A DNA stretch of 56,220 nt, taken from Methanomassiliicoccales archaeon (GTDB taxonomy: Archaea > Thermoplasmatota > Thermoplasmata > Methanomassiliicoccales > UBA472). Below, piece by piece: positions 2,204 to 13,629 of the stretch. Position 1 is the stretch's first letter. Every line of letters begins with the position of its first letter. The notes under the pieces are model-generated. The model saw only the letters and a program-made list of their open reading frames with translations. It was not told the DNA's origin and made no database searches. The DNA lies in the NCBI GenBank assembly GCA_036504055.1, contig DASXVU010000011.1:1-56220 (forward strand). The letters run 5' to 3'. A program made the position numbers and the translations under genes.

Positions 2204-3334
2204 ATGTCGTTTTTTGCTCATGAGGACAAAGTGAATCCAAAGTCACTGCGTTCCATAGACCTTCATGATCACGTGGCCATCATCTACGAGTCCCAACAAA
2301 GCATGTTCGATCTGCTCGCCGAGCTGTGCCGGATCGGCATAGAGAGGAATGAAAGGTGTTTGATAGCGACCTTTGAAGGTAACGAGATCGAGACCCATCT
2401 CCGGCGGGCAAGGATCGATGTGGATTCCGCCAAGGCCTGTGGAGCCCTGATCTTTCAGGATGTCCTAGACATATTCCCTGACGAGCCGAGCTTCGATCCA
2501 GATGGGACCGTCGCTCTATTCGAGAGAATGATCAACGAGGCAGTGGATCAAGGTTTTTCTGGATTGAGGGTGTTCAATTCGTCGTATTCGCCCGCAGCCT
2601 TTGGTGACGCCGAGGTCCATCTCGACTTCGTCGCGAGGATGGGCGGGGTGGTGAGGGACAATAAGGTAGTTCGGATCAGCCTCTTTGATCTGAACGAGCA
2701 GGAGCACGACGTGATCATAAACGCCATACTCAGCCATCCTATCATCATCCTGAGAGGGATCGTGTGCAACAATTTTTTCTATATCCCGCCCGAGCAGTTG
2801 TTCAGCCCCAAGGGCGGTTCCCCTGAGTTGTACAGGTTGATGGACAACCTGATCGACGTCCATCATAACGAGCTCAGCCTCAAGGAGAGCCACGACGAGC
2901 TTGAATCTACGAATCGGATGCTTCGTGAGGAGATCAACAAGAGGAAAATGGTGGAATGGGCCCTCCTGATATCCGAGCTAAGATACCGCAACACACTGGA
3001 TTCGATCAATGAACCGGTCATTGTCATCGACCAGGACTATAGGGTCACCGTGATAAACAAGGCAATGGAGGTCATGGGTGACAAGCTCGGAGTGAACTGC
3101 CGCTGTGTCGGTCGGCCATTTCTAGAGGCGTTCCCGCGGCTCTCAAAACAGGAATTGGACGAATACGCTCAAGTGTTCAAGAGTGGGGAAACGATCGTCT
3201 CCCAACGGATATACAACCCGAACGGCATCAAGGTGTTAGCCGAGGTGAGCAAGGTGCCGATGAAGGATGGGGACAAAGTTACGAACGTTACAACAATAAT
3301 CAGAAAGTTGGACGAGAATGAAAAAGATGCCTGA
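2204..3334 (+). CDS. MEDS domain - coiled coil - PAS sensor protein
   Basis: A 376-residue soluble protein. Residues about 20-195 look like a MEDS (methanogen/methylotroph DcmR sensory) domain: an early HDHVAIIYES, then ERCLIATFEG, a segment around FDPDGTVALFERMINEA and GLRVFNSSYS. A charged, probably coiled-coil stretch (about 215-255) leads to a PAS domain (about 255-370, SINEPVIVIDQDYRVTVINKA). There is no histidine-kinase, GGDEF or DNA-binding domain, so it probably signals by protein contact; that is inference. It stands alone between dcd (divergent) and the btu promoter region. The ligand is unknown. Confidence 0.75.
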   Translation: MSFFAHEDKVNPKSLRSIDLHDHVAIIYESQQSMFDLLAELCRIGIERNERCLIATFEGNEIETHLRRARIDVDSAKACGALIFQDVLDIFPDEPSFDPDGTVALFERMINEAVDQGFSGLRVFNSSYSPAAFGDAEVHLDFVARMGGVVRDNKVVRISLFDLNEQEHDVIINAILSHPIIILRGIVCNNFFYIPPEQLFSPKGGSPELYRLMDNLIDVHHNELSLKESHDELESTNRMLREEINKRKMVEWALLISELRYRNTLDSINEPVIVIDQDYRVTVINKAMEVMGDKLGVNCRCVGRPFLEAFPRLSKQELDEYAQVFKSGETIVSQRIYNPNGIKVLAEVSKVPMKDGDKVTNVTTIIRKLDENEKDA

Positions 3335-3680
3335 AAATATACTCAGAAAGTGGGTCTTGTTCTCAATATTGATACTCAGGTATCGACGTTAATATACCAT
3401 GGTGGCGATGTGTAACATGGGATATGGGAGCACTCGATACCAGTACATTCAAGAGCGGATGCATTAAGGATCGATTTCGACACCACCTCGCTCCCCTCCT
3501 CCTCTTTTTAAATTTCATCTCTGCAAGGTGACGCGTCTTCATCGGAAAGACGATTGTTCGTAGTGACTAGGTACTCCATCGAATTCGGCAATTATTAATA
3601 TGGTTGAAACGTTCAAGGATTAGTTGGATGTATCATCCAATTGCGGCTGTAGGGGCCGAAAGAACAGGGGGTTTTCAAGA
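3335..3680. other. 346-bp non-coding region upstream of btuF
   Basis: No convincing gene was seen. The left part carries a small inverted repeat GATAC-TCAG-GTATC (3371-3384) and a pyrimidine-rich stretch ending in TTTTTAAATTT (about 3505-3515) that could end transcription from the MEDS gene. The right part holds the btuF promoter and operator described separately. Confidence 0.6.
3591..3640 (+). promoter_or_regulatory. btuF promoter with 17-bp palindromic operator candidate
   Basis: A TATA-like ATTAATAT (3594-3601) is followed at 3624-3640 by the perfect palindrome TTGGATG-TAT-CATCCAA. The TATA spacing puts the transcription start near the left edge of the palindrome. The identical 17-mer, in the same orientation relative to the gene, occurs at cobT (12410-12426). 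A shared cobamide-responsive repressor site is inferred. Confidence 0.65.
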
Positions 3681-4766
3681 ATGGTGAAGAAAGGTGCAAT
3701 CATAGCGGTCGTCGTCGTCATGGCATTGGTCGCTGTAAGCTTGTTTGCTTTTGTCGGTATGAACAACACTAAAACCAAGGACGTCGGCAGGATCACCTTC
3801 GTAGACGCGTTGGGGAACAATGTAACGCTAAACTCGACACCTATGAGGGTCGTGTCGGCCTCGCCGAGCACCACCGAACTTCTGTATGCGATGGGGGTCA
3901 ATAACACGATCGTAGGAGTCACTGACTATTGTGACTACCCTCTGAACGATACCGGGAAATCCCCGAAAGAAATCTTCACCAGCATTGGCGGTTTCTATTC
4001 GCCTAGCAAGGAAAAGATAGCTGGACTCAACCCCGACCTGGTCCTCCTGGACGCGGGGGTCAAAAGCCAGCGGGATCTGAACACATTTTTCGACTCGCTG
4101 GGCATGAAATATGTTTCACTTTACCCGGGTAAGAATGTCACCGAGATTGAGAAGAACATAGAATTCATCGGACAGATATATGACAAAGGGGCGAAAGCCG
4201 CCTCTTTGATCACTGATATGAACGATAAGCTGTCCGCGATATCGAACGCGACCAGCAGCATACCATCCAAACTCAAGGTGATGGTGATGGTGTCTTGGAG
4301 CCCCTCGATCTACGTGAATGGCGGGAACACCTTCATTAACGATATCATCGTCGCCGCCGGCGGCGTTAACGCCTTTGGGAACGCCTCGGGCTATCTGATC
4401 GTCTCGAAGGAGGGCGTCGTCCAGGCCAATCCAGACGTGATAATTGTCGCATCGTCGATGATACCGGGTCTGACCTCACAGGAGGTCCTGGACCAGATCA
4501 AGGGCGATGCCCTTCTGCGGTACACGAACGCCGTCATTAACAACAAGGTCTTCGTCATCCAGGACCAGGCAGAGAGCTGCTTCCTGCGCCAGGGGATAAG
4601 AGTGGTCCAAGCGACCCAACTGCTGGCCGATATGCTGTATCCGACCATGTTCGGAGAGAGCATACCCAATATACTGGGAAGCGATTACGGCATCTACTTG
4701 CCCCAGAGCGGAATTACCGGAGCGATCACCCAGCAAACGGTCATGACATCGTCCATATCTCGGTGA
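3681..4766 (+). CDS. btuF: Corrinoid ABC transporter substrate-binding protein (BtuF-like)
   Basis: A 361-residue extracytoplasmic binding protein. One N-terminal hydrophobic segment (about 4-24) has no lipobox cysteine, so it is probably a membrane anchor or uncleaved signal. The periplasmic-binding fold for B12 or siderophores is recognisable from RVVSASPSTTELLYAMG and the following GVTDYCDYP. ATG 3681 is chosen because AGGGGG lies 9 nt upstream; a TTG at 3624 would start inside the operator palindrome. It heads the btuF-btuC-btuD-cobD-cbiB-cbiS-cobS-cobY unit. That context favours corrinoid over ferric-siderophore uptake, although sequence alone does not exclude the latter. Confidence 0.87.
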   Translation: MVKKGAIIAVVVVMALVAVSLFAFVGMNNTKTKDVGRITFVDALGNNVTLNSTPMRVVSASPSTTELLYAMGVNNTIVGVTDYCDYPLNDTGKSPKEIFTSIGGFYSPSKEKIAGLNPDLVLLDAGVKSQRDLNTFFDSLGMKYVSLYPGKNVTEIEKNIEFIGQIYDKGAKAASLITDMNDKLSAISNATSSIPSKLKVMVMVSWSPSIYVNGGNTFINDIIVAAGGVNAFGNASGYLIVSKEGVVQANPDVIIVASSMIPGLTSQEVLDQIKGDALLRYTNAVINNKVFVIQDQAESCFLRQGIRVVQATQLLADMLYPTMFGESIPNILGSDYGIYLPQSGITGAITQQTVMTSSISR

Positions 4767-4770
4767 TGTC

Positions 4771-5817
4771 TTGAACGGTTCAGTGGTCGAGCGGGCGAAG
4801 TCCAGGTTATTGCTTATCGTAATAGCCGGAAGCATCTCGCTCACCCTGCTCTTTTTCCTTTCCTTGGCGGTCGGTGCCTATGGCATGTCCTTCGAAACGG
4901 CCATGTCCTCCTTCTTTCATCTCATTACCGACCCGGGTGACCCCAACAGGTCATTGGATGAAGGGATCATATTGAGCTCAAGGCTGCCCCGGACGCTGTC
5001 CGTCATAGGGGTGGCCATCGGCCTTTCGATATCAGGCGCTGTCATGCAGGCGATCATCAGGAATCCGCTGGTCGACCCCTACATCACCGGTGTTTCGTCT
5101 GGGGCCGCGCTCGGCGCCTCCCTCGTGGTGATGGGCGGAGTATCAGTGGTGGGCATCGGCGTGTATTCTATGCCTCTGGCCGCCTTCGTAGGTGCCATCG
5201 CGGCCTTTGCTTTGACCCTGTCCCTATCCGAGGCGGCCGGAGGAAAGCCGATTAGCTTCGTACTGGCCGGGGTCATGATCGGACTGGGCCTGTCATCGTT
5301 CACCAACATCCTTGCGGTACTGAACCCGGACGAGCACAAGGGCATACTTTTCTGGATGTTCGGTTCGTTCACAAATGTTGATCTGAACCAGACATTGATC
5401 ATCTTGATACCGACGATCGCGATCGTCATCGTGATGCTGGTATACGCAAGGGACATGAACGTCATGCTCCTCGGTGAAGAGCAGGCTGGTCAGCTCGGCC
5501 TGAACACCCGCAATTTCAAAAGGGTCATGATGGTCCTTACTTCCTGCCTGACTGGTATCTGTGTGGCATTCACGGGTGTCATCGCATTCCTGGGTCTGAT
5601 CGTTCCCCACTCCGCCCGGATGATCGTAGGCAGCGACCACAGGTTGCTACTGCCAGCATCGATCGTGATCGGGGCCAATGTCCTTCTTCTCGCAGACATC
5701 GTGGCCAGGTCGGTCATCATGCCATCCGAACTACCGATAGGGGCGATAATATCATTGATAGGCGTTCCGTTCTTCGGATACCTGATGATCAGGAGGGGGA
5801 AGGAATATGGGGCCTGA
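4771..5817 (+). CDS. btuC: Corrinoid ABC transporter permease (BtuC/FecCD family)
   Basis: A 348-residue integral membrane protein with about nine to ten hydrophobic segments, starting at residue about 12. The FecCD-family signature SGAVMQAIIRNPLVDPYI, followed by TGVSSGAALGAS, lies near residues 90-115, and a GVIAFLGLIVPHSAR segment near 270 faces the ATPase. The start is TTG 4771, five bases after the btuF stop, with GGTGAT just upstream; GTG 4783 is an alternative. The 3' end overlaps btuD by 11 bp, so the two are translationally coupled. It forms the channel of the BtuFCD importer. Confidence 0.9.
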   Translation: MNGSVVERAKSRLLLIVIAGSISLTLLFFLSLAVGAYGMSFETAMSSFFHLITDPGDPNRSLDEGIILSSRLPRTLSVIGVAIGLSISGAVMQAIIRNPLVDPYITGVSSGAALGASLVVMGGVSVVGIGVYSMPLAAFVGAIAAFALTLSLSEAAGGKPISFVLAGVMIGLGLSSFTNILAVLNPDEHKGILFWMFGSFTNVDLNQTLIILIPTIAIVIVMLVYARDMNVMLLGEEQAGQLGLNTRNFKRVMMVLTSCLTGICVAFTGVIAFLGLIVPHSARMIVGSDHRLLLPASIVIGANVLLLADIVARSVIMPSELPIGAIISLIGVPFFGYLMIRRGKEYGA

Positions 5818-6604
5818 AACTGGCACGGTAACCGTGAAGGTAAGCGGCATATCCTTCGGTTATAACGGGAAGAACACCCTGGACGGGATCGATCTAGAAT
5901 GCGCCAGGGGTGAGTTCATCGGCCTCATAGGGCCGAACGGTTCCGGCAAGACCACGCTCCTTCGATGCATCAACGGAGTGCTCAAGCCAAAGGTCGGCAC
6001 CATCTTCGTCGAAGGCAAGAACATCGACAAGATGAAGATCAAGGAGATCGCCCGGGTCTGCGCGAACGTCCCGACCGACGCCGCCGAGGACCTGACGCTG
6101 ACCGTGCACGAGTTCGTGTTCCTAGGCCGGTACCCGTACGTCAGCGGAATGTGGTGGGAGAGCAAGGAGGACGAAGCGATCGTCGACAAGGCCATCGCCA
6201 CGTTCAAGCTGGAATCCCTGGTCAATCGCAAATTGAACGAACTGAGCTCTGGGGAACAGGCCAGGGTGCTGCTGGCCAAGGCGGTGGTCCAGCGCCCGCA
6301 GGTGATGCTTGTGGATGAGCCGTCCGCCCACCTCGACCTCCGTTACAAGCTGGAGGTGATGGAAGAGCTGCGTTCCCTTTCAAGGACCGGGATCACCGTC
6401 ATCACCGCATCGCATGACCTCAACCTGATGTCCAAGTTCTGCGACCGGGTCCTTATGATCAGCGCAGGCAGGATAGTCTCGTTCGGTCTGCCGTCGGAGG
6501 TCATGACCGAGCAGAACATCAGGGACGTGTACGGGGTAGAGGTCAGGATATTCCGCGAAGATGACGAGATATATGCCATTCCAAAGAGGTCGATAAGGCA
6601 ATGA
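5807..6604 (+). CDS. btuD: Corrinoid ABC transporter ATPase (BtuD-like)
   Basis: A 265-residue ABC ATPase that powers corrinoid import. It has Walker A GPNGSGKTT (42-50), signature LSSGEQ (146-151), Walker B VMLVDE (166-171), the D-loop SAHLD and switch His203. One oddity: the Q-loop, normally ending VPQ in this family, reads VPT (about 88-90) before LTLTVHEFVFLGRYPY, so the magnesium/water-coordinating Gln appears to be Thr. It overlaps btuC by 11 bp and cobD by 4 bp (ATGA). Confidence 0.92.
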   Translation: MGPETGTVTVKVSGISFGYNGKNTLDGIDLECARGEFIGLIGPNGSGKTTLLRCINGVLKPKVGTIFVEGKNIDKMKIKEIARVCANVPTDAAEDLTLTVHEFVFLGRYPYVSGMWWESKEDEAIVDKAIATFKLESLVNRKLNELSSGEQARVLLAKAVVQRPQVMLVDEPSAHLDLRYKLEVMEELRSLSRTGITVITASHDLNLMSKFCDRVLMISAGRIVSFGLPSEVMTEQNIRDVYGVEVRIFREDDEIYAIPKRSIRQ

Positions 6605-7737
6605 ACGTGGAGGAACTGGTCCGTGCGGACCTCTTGAACATCAAGCGGCCGATTCACGGCGGCCTGGGCTGGAAATACCAGGGCGTGGAGGACTTCAGCT
6701 CGAACCTGAACCCTCTGGGTCCGCCATCGCAGGTCCGTGACTATATGCTGGAGGCCGCGGACAAGCTTATCTACTATCCCGACGACGGCGGGATGGAGCT
6801 CAAGGATGCAATATCCAGACGGTTCGGCGTCAACAAGGATAACATCATGCTCGGAGCCGGCTCGGCCGAGCTTATCCGTCTGTTCCCAGACGTATTCATC
6901 AACAAGGGGGACGGGGTCATCATGCCCCGGCCGACCTTCGCCGAGTATCAGTTCGCCCTTAGGATGAGAGGCGCCAGCGTGCATGATTTCCCGCTTTGCG
7001 AGATCGACGGGTTCCATTTCGACTTCGCCCGGCTGAACTACATGATCGAGTCGGGATCGAAGGTGGTCTACATCTGCAATCCCAACAACCCCACCGGTGT
7101 CGTGGAAAGCAGGAAGCGTATCGTGGAGATCATCGACGAGTGCGAAAAGCAGAACACCATCGTCTTCCTGGACGAGACGCTGCTCGAGCTGGTGGACAAC
7201 GCCCGGGACCTCACCTGCGTCTCAGAGGCCGAGAGCCACGACAATCTTTTCATCATCCGCTCGTTCACCAAGTGCTTCGCCATACCGGGCATGCGGGTAG
7301 GATACGCCGTGGGCTCGAAGGACCTCATCCGGCACATGGACAACGCCCGGCTGGCGTGGAACCTGGGTCAGGTGGAGATGCACGTCGCCTCAAGGCTCTT
7401 GGATGATTGTTACGGTCACATCGAGAAGGCTGCCCGCCTCATGGCCGAGGAGAAGTCCTATCTGCTCGAGGGCATCCGCAGGACCGAGGTCGTCTCGGCC
7501 TCGAGACCGGACGCCTTTTTCTTCTTCAACCGGGTCAACGGCGGTCTGGACTCGAAGCAGCTGAAGGACCTGCTGCTCCGGTTCAACGTCCTGGTTCGGG
7601 ACTGCGGTTCGTTCGGAAGGCCGTTCGAGAAGTTCGCCCGTTTCGCCGTCAAGACCCATGACCGGAACGTGCACCTGGTGGAGGCGTTCAAGCGGACGGC
7701 CGAGATCATGGAGAACCTGAAATCTAAGGGTGAATGA
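6601..7737 (+). CDS. cobD: L-threonine-O-3-phosphate decarboxylase (CobD), class I/II aminotransferase fold
   Basis: A 378-residue PLP enzyme of the aspartate-aminotransferase fold. The early HGG (19-21), the substrate segment SSNLNPLGPP (33-42), NPNNPTG (160-166), D191 and the PLP lysine K224 in SFTKCFAIPGMRVGY are in order. HGG and SNLNPLG distinguish CobD from HisC, and a separate hisC lies at 27.1 kb. The product, (R)-1-aminopropan-2-ol phosphate, is the linker that CbiB attaches to the corrinoid. It overlaps btuD and cbiB by 4 bp each. Confidence in CobD rather than another HisC-like enzyme rests partly on the neighbours. Confidence 0.9.
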   Translation: MNVEELVRADLLNIKRPIHGGLGWKYQGVEDFSSNLNPLGPPSQVRDYMLEAADKLIYYPDDGGMELKDAISRRFGVNKDNIMLGAGSAELIRLFPDVFINKGDGVIMPRPTFAEYQFALRMRGASVHDFPLCEIDGFHFDFARLNYMIESGSKVVYICNPNNPTGVVESRKRIVEIIDECEKQNTIVFLDETLLELVDNARDLTCVSEAESHDNLFIIRSFTKCFAIPGMRVGYAVGSKDLIRHMDNARLAWNLGQVEMHVASRLLDDCYGHIEKAARLMAEEKSYLLEGIRRTEVVSASRPDAFFFFNRVNGGLDSKQLKDLLLRFNVLVRDCGSFGRPFEKFARFAVKTHDRNVHLVEAFKRTAEIMENLKSKGE

Positions 7738-8744
7738 TCTTGCTGTCCGATCTATACCTGTACGGTCTATTGACGCTCGTTCTCGCGGTCGTTATAGATC
7801 TACTGCTAGGCGAGCCGCCGAACGCCGCCCATCCAGTGGTCTGGATCGGCAAGGTCATAGGGTTCATGGACCGGCACACCAAGAGGAACGGAAGGAAGGG
7901 TTCCGAGCGGGTGAAGGGCATATTCCTGGCCTTGGTGCCCCTGTTGCTCTTCCCGTTCATGTTCACGCTGTTGCTGTTCCTGCTCCGCGATCTTTTCGGA
8001 GCGGTGATCTGGGCCATCGGATGTGCGCTGATCCTGAAGACCATGTTCGCCATCAACGCCATGGGAAAGCACACGCTGCCGATCCAGAAAGCTCTGGAAC
8101 GTGGCGACATGGAGGCGGCAAGGAAGGGCGCTTCGATGATCGTCTCCCGCGACGTCAACAAACTGGACCGAGAGCATATCATCTCCTGTGCGGCCGAGTC
8201 GGCGGCGGAGAACACCGTGGACAGCATCTTCTCGCCGTTGTTCTTCTTCGGGCTGGGAGGCATGCCTCTTATCATCTTCTACCGGGTGTCGAACACGCTG
8301 GACGCCATGGTCGGCTACATCGACCATCCGTACACGCATGTAGGATGGTTCAGCGCCAAGCTGGATGACTGCACGAACTACATCTGTGCCCGGATATCGC
8401 TTCCGTTCATCCTACTTGCCCTGATGATCCTCGGAATGGACTGGAGGGGTGCATGGAGGGACGCCAAGAAGTACCACAAGGCCACCCTCTCGCCGAACAA
8501 GGGATGGTCCATGTCCGCCTTCGCGGGCGGCCTGGGCATCCGTTTTGAGAAAGTAGGATGGTACGTCATGGGCGACGGGCCGTTGCCGACCGACCCGAAG
8601 GTTATCGGCAATACGGTCAAGGTGATGAAGGTCTCGGCGCTGCTGTTCATCGCACTGGTGGTGCTGCCGCTATTCCTTTTCGTCGGGCTCAATGTCCAGA
8701 TATATATCGAAAACCTATTCTCGGGTCTAGTCGGGTGGTTGTGA
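7734..8744 (+). CDS. cbiB: Adenosylcobinamide-phosphate synthase (CbiB), membrane protein
   Basis: A 336-residue polytopic membrane enzyme that attaches aminopropanol phosphate to adenosylcobyrate. Typical features are an N-terminal DLLLGEPPNAAHPVVWIGK, the central SRDVNKLD and AAESAAENTVDSIFSPLFFF segments, HVGWFSAKLDD, and a cytosolic SPNKGWSMSAFAGGLG segment near residue 250. It overlaps cobD (4 bp) and ends two bases before the cbiS ATG, inside one cobamide-remodelling operon. Confidence 0.94.
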   Translation: MILLSDLYLYGLLTLVLAVVIDLLLGEPPNAAHPVVWIGKVIGFMDRHTKRNGRKGSERVKGIFLALVPLLLFPFMFTLLLFLLRDLFGAVIWAIGCALILKTMFAINAMGKHTLPIQKALERGDMEAARKGASMIVSRDVNKLDREHIISCAAESAAENTVDSIFSPLFFFGLGGMPLIIFYRVSNTLDAMVGYIDHPYTHVGWFSAKLDDCTNYICARISLPFILLALMILGMDWRGAWRDAKKYHKATLSPNKGWSMSAFAGGLGIRFEKVGWYVMGDGPLPTDPKVIGNTVKVMKVSALLFIALVVLPLFLFVGLNVQIYIENLFSGLVGWL

Positions 8745-8746
8745 TC

Positions 8747-9880
8747 ATGGGCAAGGTGGAAGTGACTACGGAGTTCAGGGAGGTCGGAGAGAATACGGTA
8801 ATGGTGGTACGGCTGCCGAAGAGAATGAAGGTCCTCAGCACGACGGTGCTCAACGGAGGGTTCTCGGTCTCGGACACCCTTCTCTCGATCCAGGTCCCCA
8901 TCCATTACAATGGCACGGACCCCGAATCGGAAGTGGTCGATATCTGCAGGACGCTCGGGCTCTGCGCCGAGGCGGTCGGTTTCATGACCGCCGTCGACCT
9001 GAAGAAAGTGATCACGATCGTCAGCGAGGAGTATCATGGCATCAACGCCACCGTGGTCGCGACATCTGGAGTCAAGAACGCGGTCTATGCCGGGGAGCTC
9101 ATGACCGACGCCCTGGTCCGTGGACTGAACGGTCCCGGAACGATCAACATCATCGTCGTCCTGGACAGGCCTCTGCACGAGACTGGCATGGCCAACTCCC
9201 TGATCACCATCACCGAGGCGAAGACCGCCGCCCTCATGGATACCAAGACCAAGGGCACCGGGACGACCAGCGATGCCATAGCGATCTGCTGCCCGGAGGG
9301 CGATGGGGAGAAGTATGCTGGCACCGCGACCGATGTGGGCATATGCATGGCCCGCGCCGTACGCAAAGCGGTGGCCGCCTCAACGCTCAAATGGTATGCC
9401 CGGCCTGGCCCAGTGGATTTCATCAAGCTGCTGGACGACCGGGGCATCACCATGGAGGAGATGTGGACCGCGGCCAACAAGCTGGTGTTCCCCAACCCTG
9501 ATTGGCCGGAGGGATTCCTCAAGGGCAAATTCGTGGAGCGTATGAACCTGCTCCGGCAGGACATCAACGTCAACGCCATGGTCAAGGGGGCCATCCTTCT
9601 GGAGGATGCGGGCAATTCACAGGACCTCTACGGTCTCGACAACGGGGTCTTCGAATCCGATCCGGTCCACCTGCTGGCCGACGAGCTCATGGGGATCGCC
9701 CTGGCGGAGTACATCACCGGTACCAAGGGGCTGTTCGAATACGTTCGTTACGACCGAAAGAAGCCCGGCATCCTGGCCGAGCTCGGCCCGTTCCTCGACG
9801 ACATCGTGGGTGCGTTGATCGGCGCGGTAATGTCCAGGATATACTCTGATCTACTGGAGGCGGAAGGACGACTACAATAG
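8747..9880 (+). CDS. cbiS: Fused adenosylcobinamide amidohydrolase / alpha-ribazole phosphatase (CbiS: CbiZ-CobZ)
   Basis: A 377-residue two-domain protein. Residues 1-220 match CbiZ, the archaeal amidohydrolase that cuts the nucleotide loop of salvaged corrinoids: NGGFSVSD (36-43), SGVKNAV, TEAKTAAL and TGTTSD (171-176), then a VGICMARAV helix. Residues about 225-377 resemble the PgpA/CobZ fold (LRQDINVNAMVKGAILLEDAG, HLLADELMGIALAEYI and a terminal DDIVGALIGAV), which in archaea dephosphorylates alpha-ribazole phosphate. This domain order is that of the bifunctional CbiS known from Methanopyrus. ATG 8747 is preferred; GTG 8741 is in frame and overlaps the cbiB stop. The stop is TAG. Confidence 0.87.
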   Translation: MGKVEVTTEFREVGENTVMVVRLPKRMKVLSTTVLNGGFSVSDTLLSIQVPIHYNGTDPESEVVDICRTLGLCAEAVGFMTAVDLKKVITIVSEEYHGINATVVATSGVKNAVYAGELMTDALVRGLNGPGTINIIVVLDRPLHETGMANSLITITEAKTAALMDTKTKGTGTTSDAIAICCPEGDGEKYAGTATDVGICMARAVRKAVAASTLKWYARPGPVDFIKLLDDRGITMEEMWTAANKLVFPNPDWPEGFLKGKFVERMNLLRQDINVNAMVKGAILLEDAGNSQDLYGLDNGVFESDPVHLLADELMGIALAEYITGTKGLFEYVRYDRKKPGILAELGPFLDDIVGALIGAVMSRIYSDLLEAEGRLQ

Positions 9881-10668
9881 GCGCGGTCAAAGCAGCATTC
9901 TCGATGTTCACGATGATACCGCTGGACGTCGAAGGCGAAGAGGTTGTCGGGCTGTCAAAACGATTCTACCTGATTGTCCTGGTGGGAGCGTTCTACGGAT
10001 TGATCGCCGGATCGCTGATGTGGGCCCTATCACAGGTGTTCACCGTTCTGACCGCAGGAGTGCTGGCCCTTTTGGTGGTCCATGCTCTGAACCGTTTCCT
10101 GCACTTCGATGGGCTGAGCGATTTCGGTGACGGAATGATATGCAGCGGCGACCAGGAGAAGAAGATGAGGGCGGTCAAGGACTCGCACACCGGTGCTGGA
10201 GGCATCGGATACTCCATCGTCTTCACTGCGCTGAGCATCGTGGCGCTAGGTGAGCTCTCACCGCAGCTGGTCTTCTTCGGGCCGTTCGTGGCCGAACTGC
10301 TGAACAAGAACGCCATGGTCTTCGCCGCTTCGGCCGGTTCCTCCCGGGAAGGGCTGGGTGGCATTTTCGTAAAGAACGCGTCGGCCAAGACGGCCGCGAT
10401 CTCCGCCCTGATCTCGCTGGTGTTCATCATACCGGTGAGTTACGCCTTCTATTGGTACTATGGGCTGTCGATGTACTGGCTGATCTTCATGATCGTGGCG
10501 CCGTTGGTCATCAGCTGCGTGGTCGGAACGATCGCCGCCAGGATAGCCATGAAAGGGTTCGGCTGCGTCAACGGGGATGTCCTCGGTGCTACCAACGAAT
10601 TCTCCCGGCCGTTCGTGCTTTTGACCGTCTCGGCGGTGGTCTGGTGCCTGGCCACGCTGCACTGGTGA
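9877..10668 (+). CDS. cobS: Adenosylcobinamide-GDP ribazoletransferase (CobS), probable ATA start
   Basis: A membrane enzyme (about 263 residues, several hydrophobic helices) joining adenosylcobinamide-GDP to alpha-ribazole. The metal-binding HFDGLSDFGDG and the distal GDVLGATNE motif are present. The first ordinary start is ATG 9904, but the frame upstream encodes IGAVKAAFSMFTMIPL, matching the conserved first helix and (T)xIP loop of CobS. No ATG, GTG or TTG lies between an upstream stop at 9847 and ATG 9904. ATA 9877 overlaps the cbiS TAG and has AAGGA 8 nt before it, whereas ATG 9904 has no Shine-Dalgarno. If only ATG is used, the gene is 9904-10668. Confidence 0.9.
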   Translation: MGAVKAAFSMFTMIPLDVEGEEVVGLSKRFYLIVLVGAFYGLIAGSLMWALSQVFTVLTAGVLALLVVHALNRFLHFDGLSDFGDGMICSGDQEKKMRAVKDSHTGAGGIGYSIVFTALSIVALGELSPQLVFFGPFVAELLNKNAMVFAASAGSSREGLGGIFVKNASAKTAAISALISLVFIIPVSYAFYWYYGLSMYWLIFMIVAPLVISCVVGTIAARIAMKGFGCVNGDVLGATNEFSRPFVLLTVSAVVWCLATLHW

Positions 10669-11267
10669 CCGCCGGCGGCAAGGGCAGCCGCATCAGCGAA
10701 CTGGGTGTCGAGAAACCGTTGGTGCCTATCGCCGGCGTGCCGATGATAGACCGTATTCTGGAAGAACTATCCAGATCTTCGAGGATCGACCGGATCTACG
10801 TATCGGTGAGCCCTTTGGCACCGAAGACCAGAGATCATCTCGATGGCAGCGACGTTGTGATAATCGAAACGCCAGGTAACGGTTATGTGGCCGATCTGAA
10901 CAGCTCTATGCGTGCCATCGAGGAGGACGCCGTCATGGTCTGTCCTTCGGATATGCCGCTGATCACCTCTGCCGGGGTTGACGAGCTCATCGCCACCTAT
11001 GATGAAAGGGCACAGCCCTCCCTAACGGTGGCGCTGCCGCCAAAGGTCGTTGAGTCGCTGGGATTGATCGTCACGTATGTCGAGGAGATTGAAGGCAGAC
11101 CGCTGACATTCTGCGGGGTGAGCGTGGTTGACCGTAAGGAGATGCTGACCGGTAACTTCTTGCCAGGCGGTTATTTCGTCACCGAAAAGGAGGAGTTCGC
11201 CGTGAACGTCAATACCGTCCACGACCTCCGCCTGGCAGAAAGGATTTTGGAGGAGAGACCCAGGTAG
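10644..11267 (+). CDS. cobY: Adenosylcobinamide-phosphate guanylyltransferase (CobY)
   Basis: A 207-residue nucleotidyltransferase that activates adenosylcobinamide phosphate with GTP, the archaeal replacement for CobU. It has the glycine-rich nucleotide loop AGGKGSR (10-16), a downstream EKPLVPIAG, and a CPSDMPLI metal-binding segment (about residue 93). GTG 10644 gives a complete first strand (HAALVTAGG) and overlaps cobS by 25 bp. GTG 10665, overlapping the cobS stop as GTGA, would cut that strand short. The frame is open back to 10452, but that part lies entirely within cobS. It is last in the operon; the TAG stop lies 7 bp from the convergent cobT stop. Confidence 0.88.
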   Translation: MPGHAALVTAGGKGSRISELGVEKPLVPIAGVPMIDRILEELSRSSRIDRIYVSVSPLAPKTRDHLDGSDVVIIETPGNGYVADLNSSMRAIEEDAVMVCPSDMPLITSAGVDELIATYDERAQPSLTVALPPKVVESLGLIVTYVEEIEGRPLTFCGVSVVDRKEMLTGNFLPGGYFVTEKEEFAVNVNTVHDLRLAERILEERPR

Positions 11268-11274
11268 TCCGTGT

Positions 11275-12387
11275 CTAGTGTTTGGCTAGGGCCATGATCT
11301 TCTCATAGTTCTTCTCGATCTCGGCGAACAGGGTCTTGCAGGTGATCGCCCCGCTGCTCTGGCAGAATGCCGCTATGGATATCCCTCCGGCGCCCACACC
11401 TTCCTTGACCAGGCCCTTCTCGTAGAAGGTCAGCCCATCGTGCTTGGTCGATGAGAAGTCCAGGTTGGCCGCCAGGACCGGCACGTGGCCGATCTGCTTC
11501 ACGATGCCTACCAGGTCGGCGGATGGGTCCTTCATGATCCATCGGGTCGTTCCGAGCGCGACATTGTCCAACGCCTTCGGTTCCATCGATTTCACGACGG
11601 CCAGGACCGCGGCCATCTGGGTCCCTCCGGCAAGAATGACCGGGACCTTTCTGGCCGCGCCCACGATCAGACCGGCTGCCGCCGGCATCATCGGGTCCCC
11701 GACGGCCGCCACGGCCAGCATGCCGTCGTTCTTCATCTGCTCAGGGGTCGATCTGGACTTGGATATGCCCTCCTTGGCGATCGAGGATTTGAGCGAGTGC
11801 GGGTTTTCCGGCAATGTCGAACTGACCTTGCCGTCGGCGTTGTAGCCTAATGCCAAAAGGACCGCCAGGGCGGTCGTCGTTCCCCCGGCTATGCTCTCAC
11901 CAACGACCAGATAGTCAGAGACCTTGGCCAGGTTCTCTCCGGCTATGACCGCGTTTTCGTAGACCCGTTTGGGATCACGGACCGCCGCCCCGGTCTTGAT
12001 GTCCTCTCCTGGATACCCTTCCAGCTCGAAATAGGGCGCATGGGGCCGTACCCGGACGCCCCCGTTTGCGGCATAGAACGGCATTCCGGTCATCCCGATT
12101 GCGCTCATGGTGACCAGCGCCGGTGTCGGTATGCCGTTCGGCGTAACAGGCACTCCATCGATGCACTTGCATCTTCCATAATATAGCAATTCAATGTCCG
12201 CGGCAGGCGTGAAATCCGTGATGGCCGGAACCGCGCCCGCGGCCGATATGCCAGGGATCTTCGCCGTTTCGGTGTTACCTATCACGCAGATGAATGTCGG
12301 TCTCTTGCCCCAGACCTTCTCGACGAATGCCTTGGCCTTCGCTTCCTCATTGCAGATCAGGATGTCCTCAGGGACTTTGAAGTTCAT
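11275..12387 (-). CDS. cobT: Archaeal CobT-type nicotinate-nucleotide:lower-ligand phosphoribosyltransferase family protein
   Basis: A 370-residue protein of the archaeal CobT-like (UPF0284/TIGR00303) family, expected to make alpha-ribotides for the cobamide lower ligand. Recognisable segments are GNTETAKIPGISAAG, a glycine-rich VVGESIAGGTTTALAVL (about 175-190), and PVILAGGTQMAAVLAV. Start ATG 12387 follows GAGGTG; the frame extends to a TTG at 12426, but that lies inside the operator palindrome. It is convergent with cobY and has its own promoter carrying the same 17-bp palindrome as btuF. The precise lower ligand cannot be read from sequence. Confidence 0.85.
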   Translation of the reverse strand: MNFKVPEDILICNEEAKAKAFVEKVWGKRPTFICVIGNTETAKIPGISAAGAVPAITDFTPAADIELLYYGRCKCIDGVPVTPNGIPTPALVTMSAIGMTGMPFYAANGGVRVRPHAPYFELEGYPGEDIKTGAAVRDPKRVYENAVIAGENLAKVSDYLVVGESIAGGTTTALAVLLALGYNADGKVSSTLPENPHSLKSSIAKEGISKSRSTPEQMKNDGMLAVAAVGDPMMPAAAGLIVGAARKVPVILAGGTQMAAVLAVVKSMEPKALDNVALGTTRWIMKDPSADLVGIVKQIGHVPVLAANLDFSSTKHDGLTFYEKGLVKEGVGAGGISIAAFCQSSGAITCKTLFAEIEKNYEKIMALAKH

Positions 12388-12409
12388 TTGTTGACACCTC
12401 TCAAAGTAG

Positions 12410-12450
12410 TTGGATGATACATCCAATGTATGAGAAATAGACTATTTAAT
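12410..12450 (-). promoter_or_regulatory. cobT promoter with 17-bp palindromic operator candidate
   Basis: Read on the minus strand, TATA-like ATTAAATAG (12450-12442) precedes TTGGATGTATCATCCAA (12426-12410), the exact 17-mer found before btuF. The predicted transcription start falls inside the palindrome, and the cobT ATG is 22 bp further on. A repressor overlapping the start site would fit both promoters. Confidence 0.65.
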
Positions 12451-12498: not shown

Positions 12499-13566
12499 CT
12501 AGATGAATATCTTCGGCAACAGGTCGCCGAGCTGGATGCACTTGGATTCCTGTTCGCAGAACCGCTTTCCCTCGGCCGAAGTGACTAGGTGGTCGGTGAT
12601 GGCGTATGGAACCTTCATCACGATGTGTTCCCCGGTGACCGAAGAACACCCATGGTCCACGATGACGGCGATGCGGCAGTTGGAGAACGATTTTGCATTG
12701 CGCATGAGCTCCTTATCGACCGCCTCCAGCAATTCCACTTTTTCTCTCGGGGCGCGTTTATGGGATATATCGTCGGTCTCCTCGACATGCAGGAACACAT
12801 CCTCTTTTTTGATCAATGAAGCGGCTTCCTTGATGCCATGTTTGAAATCCGAGACACGTTTCGATCTGATGCCCAGGAAAGCGGCCACTCCCAGAGCCGA
12901 GGGGCTCTTGGAGATTATGGTCATCGGCGGGACCTTCCTGCTGCTGGCCCTTGCCTCTTCAGCCAGCTTTCCGAAGCCCCCGCCCCAGGGCAGCATGGTT
13001 ATGCCGCCAGTGTGCATCGCCACGGACTCAGCGAATTCCTCGAACTCGTAAAGGTCCTCCGGCATGACGTCCGCCGGGCTCGGCGGCTTGGGCAGGTCCA
13101 AAATTCGGTTGCTCTCCACGGTCATCACCGCCTTGCCCCCTTGGTAGAACAGGATGCTCGGTTTCATCCCGGAGATGTGCTTCTTGCTTTTCAGGACCGC
13201 TTTCTGCAGCTCGATCTCGTCCGCACAGGACACCTTGTAGTACCATTCCACTCTTCCGTTGACGATCTTGGCCGGTGTCATACGATATGCGATCCTCGAC
13301 GCATCCAGTGGAAGTCCCAGTCCGAAGGCCTCGATCACTCCCCGGGGCACATCGAGCGGCTTGCCGGAGAACAGCTGCAGAAGGAAGAAATGGGTGTATT
13401 CCCGCGCGTCCGTGCATCCCAACTCGCCGCTCGAAGCGACCGAATTGATGAACTTCATCGTGGAGACCTGGAGAGGGGTCTTGTAATCAAGTGCCGGCAC
13501 CTTGTCGTCGGTCGCTCCGTCGAGCATGATCACAAGGGTCCGCCTCGAGTTGGACATATCATCCAT
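12499..13566 (-). CDS. Archaeal phosphoglycerate-mutase (ApgM)-like protein lacking the active-site Ser
   Basis: A 355-residue alkaline-phosphatase-superfamily protein resembling archaeal 2,3-bisphosphoglycerate-independent phosphoglycerate mutase: MLDGATD (N-terminal metal Asp), KTPLQ, PRGVIEAFGLGLPL, AYRMTPAKI, VEETDDISH (second metal site, near 265) and VDHGCSS. In ApgM the nucleophile is the Ser of GSDVAH; the aligned segment here is AREYTH, so Ser becomes Arg (about residue 55) while the His is kept. A phosphotransfer mechanism is therefore doubtful and the role is unknown. ATG 13566 is chosen; in-frame GTG 13572 and ATG 13557 are alternatives. It lies between cobT and hypF on the same strand, 112 bp before cobT, but has no evident link to either. 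Confidence 0.7.
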   Translation of the reverse strand: MDDMSNSRRTLVIMLDGATDDKVPALDYKTPLQVSTMKFINSVASSGELGCTDAREYTHFFLLQLFSGKPLDVPRGVIEAFGLGLPLDASRIAYRMTPAKIVNGRVEWYYKVSCADEIELQKAVLKSKKHISGMKPSILFYQGGKAVMTVESNRILDLPKPPSPADVMPEDLYEFEEFAESVAMHTGGITMLPWGGGFGKLAEEARASSRKVPPMTIISKSPSALGVAAFLGIRSKRVSDFKHGIKEAASLIKKEDVFLHVEETDDISHKRAPREKVELLEAVDKELMRNAKSFSNCRIAVIVDHGCSSVTGEHIVMKVPYAITDHLVTSAEGKRFCEQESKCIQLGDLLPKIFI

Positions 13567-13629
13567 TATCACGATTCACATCCTTAATCGTTTGCAGTGC
13601 CACTGAATTCTAAACAAATGGCCAGTATC

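Follow-up and report, generated by a model that had tools for sequence, protein, structure and literature searches.

The 56,220-nucleotide stretch analysed here (the window) is contig C11 of a Methanomassiliicoccales genome (G000; 2.66 Mb, 49 contigs) and holds a block of cobamide (B12) genes. The run btuF-btuC-btuD-cobD-cbiB-cbiS-cobS-cobY is opened by one promoter and cobT, convergent from the other side, by a second; since cobT converges on the far end of the run, the two promoters together cover salvage and lower-ligand assembly. The element under study is a 17-bp palindrome, TTGGATGTATCATCCAA, found exactly once before btuF and once before cobT, whose arms, TTGGATG and CATCCAA, form perfect inverted repeats flanking TAT. 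Positions and strands agree with those given for both copies in an earlier note on this DNA (Table 1), and its naming of the two downstream genes is borne out by profile matches, to Peripla_BP_2 for the btuF-like gene and to TIGR00303, above its cut-off, for cobT. Among the assignments in the table, cbiB, cobS and cobT pass their curated cut-offs, while btuC, btuD, cobD, cbiS and cobY are best matches under them. The palindrome lies 40 bp before the btuF ATG and 22 bp before the cobT ATG; TTG starts inside it (3624 for btuF), which give longer open reading frames (ORFs), are a mechanical artefact.

Table 1 Features of the window and related operons elsewhere (positions without a prefix are those of the window).
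Feature	Location	Strand	Basis or remark
17-bp palindrome, putative operator, before btuF	3624..3640	+	present in 17 closest btuF orthologues
17-bp palindrome, putative operator, before cobT; identical to btuF copy	12410..12426	-	kept in 20/27 cobT orthologues
TATA-like element TTATTAATAT, btuF promoter	3592..3601	+	sequence; octamer enrichment in relatives
TATA element TTAAATA, cobT promoter	12443..12449	-	sequence; position conserved among cobT promoters
btuF-like substrate-binding protein	3681..4766	+	Peripla_BP_2 E=1.7e-36; ATG at 3681
btuC permease	4771..5817	+	FecCD E=1.4e-87; BtuC models below cut-off
btuD ATPase	5807..6604	+	corrinoid ABC ATPase model, 224 bits, below cut-off
cobD-like threonine-phosphate decarboxylase	6601..7737	+	TIGR01140 best match, below cut-off
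cbiB	7734..8744	+	TIGR00380 above cut-off
cbiS (CbiZ-CobZ fusion)	8744..9880	+	NF038002 just below cut-off; CbiZ E=2.7e-49
cobS	9904..10668	+	TIGR00317 above cut-off
cobY-like guanylyltransferase	10650..11267	+	TIGR00454 / CobY best matches, below cut-off
cobT (nicotinate-nucleotide-dependent phosphoribosyltransferase)	11275..12387	-	TIGR00303, 394 bits vs cut-off 240; ATG at 12387
DUF4430-ECF operon	L048:4468-10017 (G000 C20); G006 1443954-1449406; L114:3054-6500
Dehydrogenase/phosphoribosyltransferase pair	L047:11887-14103 (G000 C16); G006 1349506-1351764; also L070, L082, L090, L093

Both promoters carry the TATA-like box claimed for them, TTATTAATAT ending 22 bp upstream of the btuF palindrome and TTAAATA ending 16 bp upstream of the cobT palindrome. 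At up to 3 mismatches the window contains 5 matches, against a mean of 0.13 in shuffled windows, which never gave 5; the earlier judgement that the copies are unlikely to have arisen by chance stands. A weak 3-mismatch match at 13550-13566 covers the beginning of a gene (12499-13572, minus strand) and is probably a coding coincidence.

Searching the whole of G000 with the pattern TTGGATGNNNCATCCAA yields 10 matches at up to 1 mismatch and none for the reversed control; at up to 2 mismatches the counts are 23 and 1. The assertion that no other copy exists is thus correct for exact copies in the window and fails genome-wide, where three more perfect TTGGATGNNNCATCCAA sites and five with 1 mismatch occur. 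Nor are these the only two promoters of the pathway, as had been supposed: cbiP (contig C3) and the cbi operon, on other contigs, have copies of their own. On contig C12, two sites spaced 33 bp separate cbiT from a gene pair for precorrin-2 dehydrogenase and hemA. Further sites are found on C16, ahead of a medium-chain dehydrogenase that has a PPOX gene divergent from it; on C20, ahead of the gene for a secreted beta-propeller protein; on C21, ahead of a radical SAM-SPASM gene; and on C42, ahead of an amino acid permease. The few sites of this genome and of the relative G006, described below, sit mostly at B12 genes. At the radical SAM-SPASM and permease sites (L008:1501-1517 and L009:1501-1517) we also observe half-site-like ATCCAA direct repeats upstream of the TATA box. 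Weaker palindrome-like sites lie 113-125 nt before an mcrB-like gene in two genera (G000 C5:67742, that is L052:17042, and G006 204447); these may be low-affinity sites or chance matches.

The motif is a property of the order. At up to 1 mismatch it is present in 39 of 41 Methanomassiliicoccales genomes and in 30/30 of those of good quality, the reversed control matching in one genome. The exact pattern, counted over a phylum-wide sample, occurs in 22/39 members of the order, in 0/51 genomes from other orders of the class and in 6/203 elsewhere in the phylum, these six having one match each. Scanning a species collection for the exact 17-mer matched 95 stretches, 80 of which were examined as loci: the 54 loci that we assigned by title to Methanomassiliicoccales or close kin hold 58 matches with 1 inside an ORF, and of the remaining 26 matches, mostly bacterial, 16 lie within ORFs.

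Pfam neighbours of the sites include CbiA, CbiP, CobO, CbiN, CbiM, CobN and ribonucleotide reductase. Among 143 distinct perfect-core sites, 85 adjoin B12-linked genes, 40 adjoin other genes, 4 are intragenic and 14 are without a called gene in their vicinity; these labels come from blastp against reference proteins of our own choosing in related genomes, with DUF4430/propeller proteins (12 label counts) placed in the B12-linked class on the strength of their palindrome association, and serve as a description rather than an independent test. The least biased view of the genes behind the sites is given by G006, where 1.6 Mb of a 1.82-Mb contig were read and 8 sites score at least 13.5; a single shuffled sequence gave 0. 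The 8 stand at cobT, the btuF operon, cbiT/precorrin-2 dehydrogenase (two), the DUF4430 operon described below, a dehydrogenase operon (two) and an AT-rich gap (one). The last of these, at 592693, is a perfect core that directly follows a TATA-like stretch. The AT-rich gap around it is long, with no gene start near the site, and split corrinoid-protein ORFs lie about 530 bp further on.

Orthologous promoters retain the palindrome. It is found at up to 2 mismatches in 20 of 27 cobT orthologues, there 10-27 nt before the start, and in all 17 of the closest btuF orthologues, more distant BtuF-like proteins mostly being without it; shuffled upstream regions give rates of 0.9-1.7% over the cobT and btuF sets (0.9% for cobT). 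Column identity in the arms averages 0.95 in non-redundant cobT promoters against 0.49 and 0.41 in the 60-bp flanks, the arm figure leaning high because these promoters were anchored on the site itself; the flank contrast and the fixed distance to the start are independent of that anchoring. For btuF promoters the values are 0.99 in the arms and 0.45 and 0.46 in the flanks. The conserved flank columns of the cobT promoters are mainly those of the TATA element, at -29 to -18.

Position relative to the promoter is equally regular. When 139 oriented sites are combined, TATA-like octamers are most frequent 25-32 bp ahead of the palindrome, at 18.0 where shuffles give about 4; a lesser maximum is seen at -12. 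Archaeal transcription starts roughly 22-27 bp downstream of the TATA box, and the predicted start therefore falls at the first half of the palindrome, in agreement with what the earlier note had predicted from two promoters. The core of the site is TTGGAT-N5-ATCCAA, extended in the consensus AGTTGGATGTATCATCCAACT by a left-hand AG and a right-hand CT. Relative to the gene, its centre is GTATC in 17 cases and GATAC in 18, both orientations being equally used; the shared orientation remarked on for btuF and cobT is real as placed and carries no meaning. Tandem copies are frequent and most often spaced by 23 bp (7/42 pairs), a distance that would suit two dimers on one helix face.

The site at C20:54375 heads an operon for the parts of an energy-coupling factor (ECF) system, namely EcfT (CbiQ family), a double EcfA and an S component, preceded by genes for a propeller/PKD surface protein and a small DUF4430 protein. 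G006 has the same gene order; L114, which is cut before the S component, shows the surface proteins, EcfT and EcfA. Because it belongs to the palindrome regulon, we regard this operon as a candidate corrinoid importer. ECF-type import of B12 is known in bacteria, where ECF-CbrT (PMC5997447) is an importer of this type; the archaeal operon, with its EcfS, EcfT and double EcfA, resembles it as a candidate ECF-type importer and differs in adding two putative surface proteins, one with DUF4430. A second recurrent palindrome-linked unit pairs the medium-chain dehydrogenase with a Glycos_transf_3 (TrpD-like) phosphoribosyltransferase, a combination with no known B12 role.

Judged from sequence, the palindrome probably serves Methanomassiliicoccales as the operator of their cobamide regulon and overlaps the predicted transcription start; the earlier reading of it as the operator of an archaeal B12 regulon is thereby supported. 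A dimeric regulator of helix-turn-helix (HTH) type would bind the palindrome. The distance from the start of the TATA box to that of the site, about 25-32 bp, places the site across the predicted start, where a bound protein would block initiation, and it is from this position that we infer a repressor. Most likely, ample corrinoid would bring repression and scarcity would lift it. Uptake (btuFCD, the DUF4430-ECF system and, in some species, cbiMN) would then be switched together with corrin ring synthesis (the cbi operon, cbiA, cbiP and cobN), adenosylation (cobO) and lower-ligand assembly (cobD, cbiB, cbiS, cobS, cobY and cobT). Whether the regulon extends over the whole order under a corrinoid-sensing factor of unrecognised family, which would replace riboswitches and also govern the DUF4430-ECF importer and the dehydrogenase-phosphoribosyltransferase pathway, we consider evenly balanced.

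Certain observations weigh against the operator reading. Some sites precede radical SAM-SPASM, amino acid permease, YaaH and zinc-ribbon proteins or the MDR dehydrogenase operon, none with a known B12 link; the cobT of family f2 has no site; a minority of promoters place the site nearer the TATA box or farther from the gene; and among the candidate regulators examined, none combines presence across the order with a link to the sites. An HTH-DUF4443 protein (PH0730-like) is found in 60/61 genomes and adjoins the DUF4430 site in several, its gene lying behind an apparent S-adenosylmethionine synthetase gene; nothing connects it to the other sites. In G006 a double-HTH Lrp-like protein is encoded divergently from the DUF4430 operon; it was rejected as not order-wide, with orthologues in 12/41 genomes (E<=1e-30). 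CarH/LitR-type proteins are MerR regulators with a B12-binding domain, and a DNA-binding protein that senses B12 would fit the proposed role; however, no HTH fusion of the CarH kind was recognised among the 18 PF02310 matches of G000, not every one of which was read. Those read as protein resemble corrinoid proteins; for the long frames, a length of 481-757 aa points to radical SAM or similar enzymes. Examination of HTH genes in all motif neighbourhoods and in the 1.6 Mb of G006 turned up no recurring candidate that has a palindrome of its own, the prefilter of general-knowledge consensus strings being one that can miss families, and literature searches for an archaeal B12 regulator brought nothing decisive. 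In the window itself, a gene for a MEDS-PAS sensor protein lies upstream of btuF (2204-3334); no DNA-binding domain was seen in it.

The regulator may respond to another signal or belong to a known family. That the operator serves a factor sensing cobalt, or the balance of nickel and cobalt, instead of corrinoid is unlikely but deserves attention, given the sites at cbiM/cbiN and at the chelatases cbiX and cobN in some species, and at the F430 gene cfbC in two. In many Methanomassiliicoccales (L212-L239, e.g. L214, L219, L235), moreover, the cobalt/nickel transport operon cbiMNQO is headed by a Fur-family gene, whose product is possibly a cobalt- or nickel-responsive regulator, and in one genus this gene shares its intergenic site with cbiP. 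The majority of sites, however, stand at genes for taking up corrinoid and for its late assembly, functions for which cobalt sensing is unnecessary; the fur-led cbiMNQO operons of family f1 are generally without the palindrome, and many motif-bearing genomes have no Fur protein. It is far less probable that the Fur-family protein beside cbiP or cbiM is itself the regulator, although it is divergent from cbiP across the palindrome in three genomes of one genus and stands beside the palindrome before cbiM in others. Fur-family matches occur in 37/61 genomes and are lacking in 24/61, including G022, G023, G029 and G032 with 5-12 motif copies each, which contradicts an order-wide role for the family; elsewhere the Fur gene simply heads cbiMNQO.

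An RNA origin of the signal must also be weighed. A 7-bp stem with a 3-nt loop at the transcript 5' end, acting as a new small riboswitch or as the site of an RNA-binding protein, would be the first RNA feature, since transcription is predicted to start at the palindrome or immediately ahead of it. We hold this to be quite improbable: the same letters are conserved rather than compensatory pairs, and changes on one side of the arms that break pairing, such as TTGGATGATACAACCAA, are tolerated, which favours DNA recognition over a hairpin. Furthermore, the centre occurs in both orientations, divergent genes are served, tandem copies are common, and the hairpin seems far too short for a corrinoid aptamer. 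The predicted start at the palindrome favours a repressor that blocks initiation. The cobalamin riboswitch (RF00174) controls the same kinds of genes in bacteria (btu, cbi, cob and ECF uptake), but here a 17-21 bp palindrome at the predicted start would take that place. The RF00174 covariance model had no match in the window, in six other loci of G000 or in 41 genomes of the order, stricter filters being applied to the 41 so that weak matches may be lost, and was positive in 8/14 control genomes. This fits the description of the lineage as one without recognisable B12 riboswitches. Least credible of all is a chance or repetitive element. The palindrome is short and lies in AT-rich intergenic DNA, yet the genome counts against a near-zero reversed control, the retained position at orthologous promoters and the contrast between arms and unconserved flanks contradict it.

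The idea of a B12 signal in archaea whose regulator is still to be named is not new. For some archaea, Rodionov et al. 2003 (J Biol Chem) reportedly described a CBL-box as the signal read by a hypothetical B12 regulator; Methanomassiliicoccales were described after that proposal. The two would be alike in being conserved DNA signals upstream of archaeal B12 genes with no regulator identified; the present palindrome is found in Methanomassiliicoccales and is near chance elsewhere in the phylum.

B12 is central to methylotrophic methanogenesis, and, to our knowledge, its control in archaea without riboswitches is poorly known. For this order the palindrome provides a defined DNA bait together with a list of genes, including a candidate importer and an unexplained operon; the missing regulator can therefore be fished out directly.

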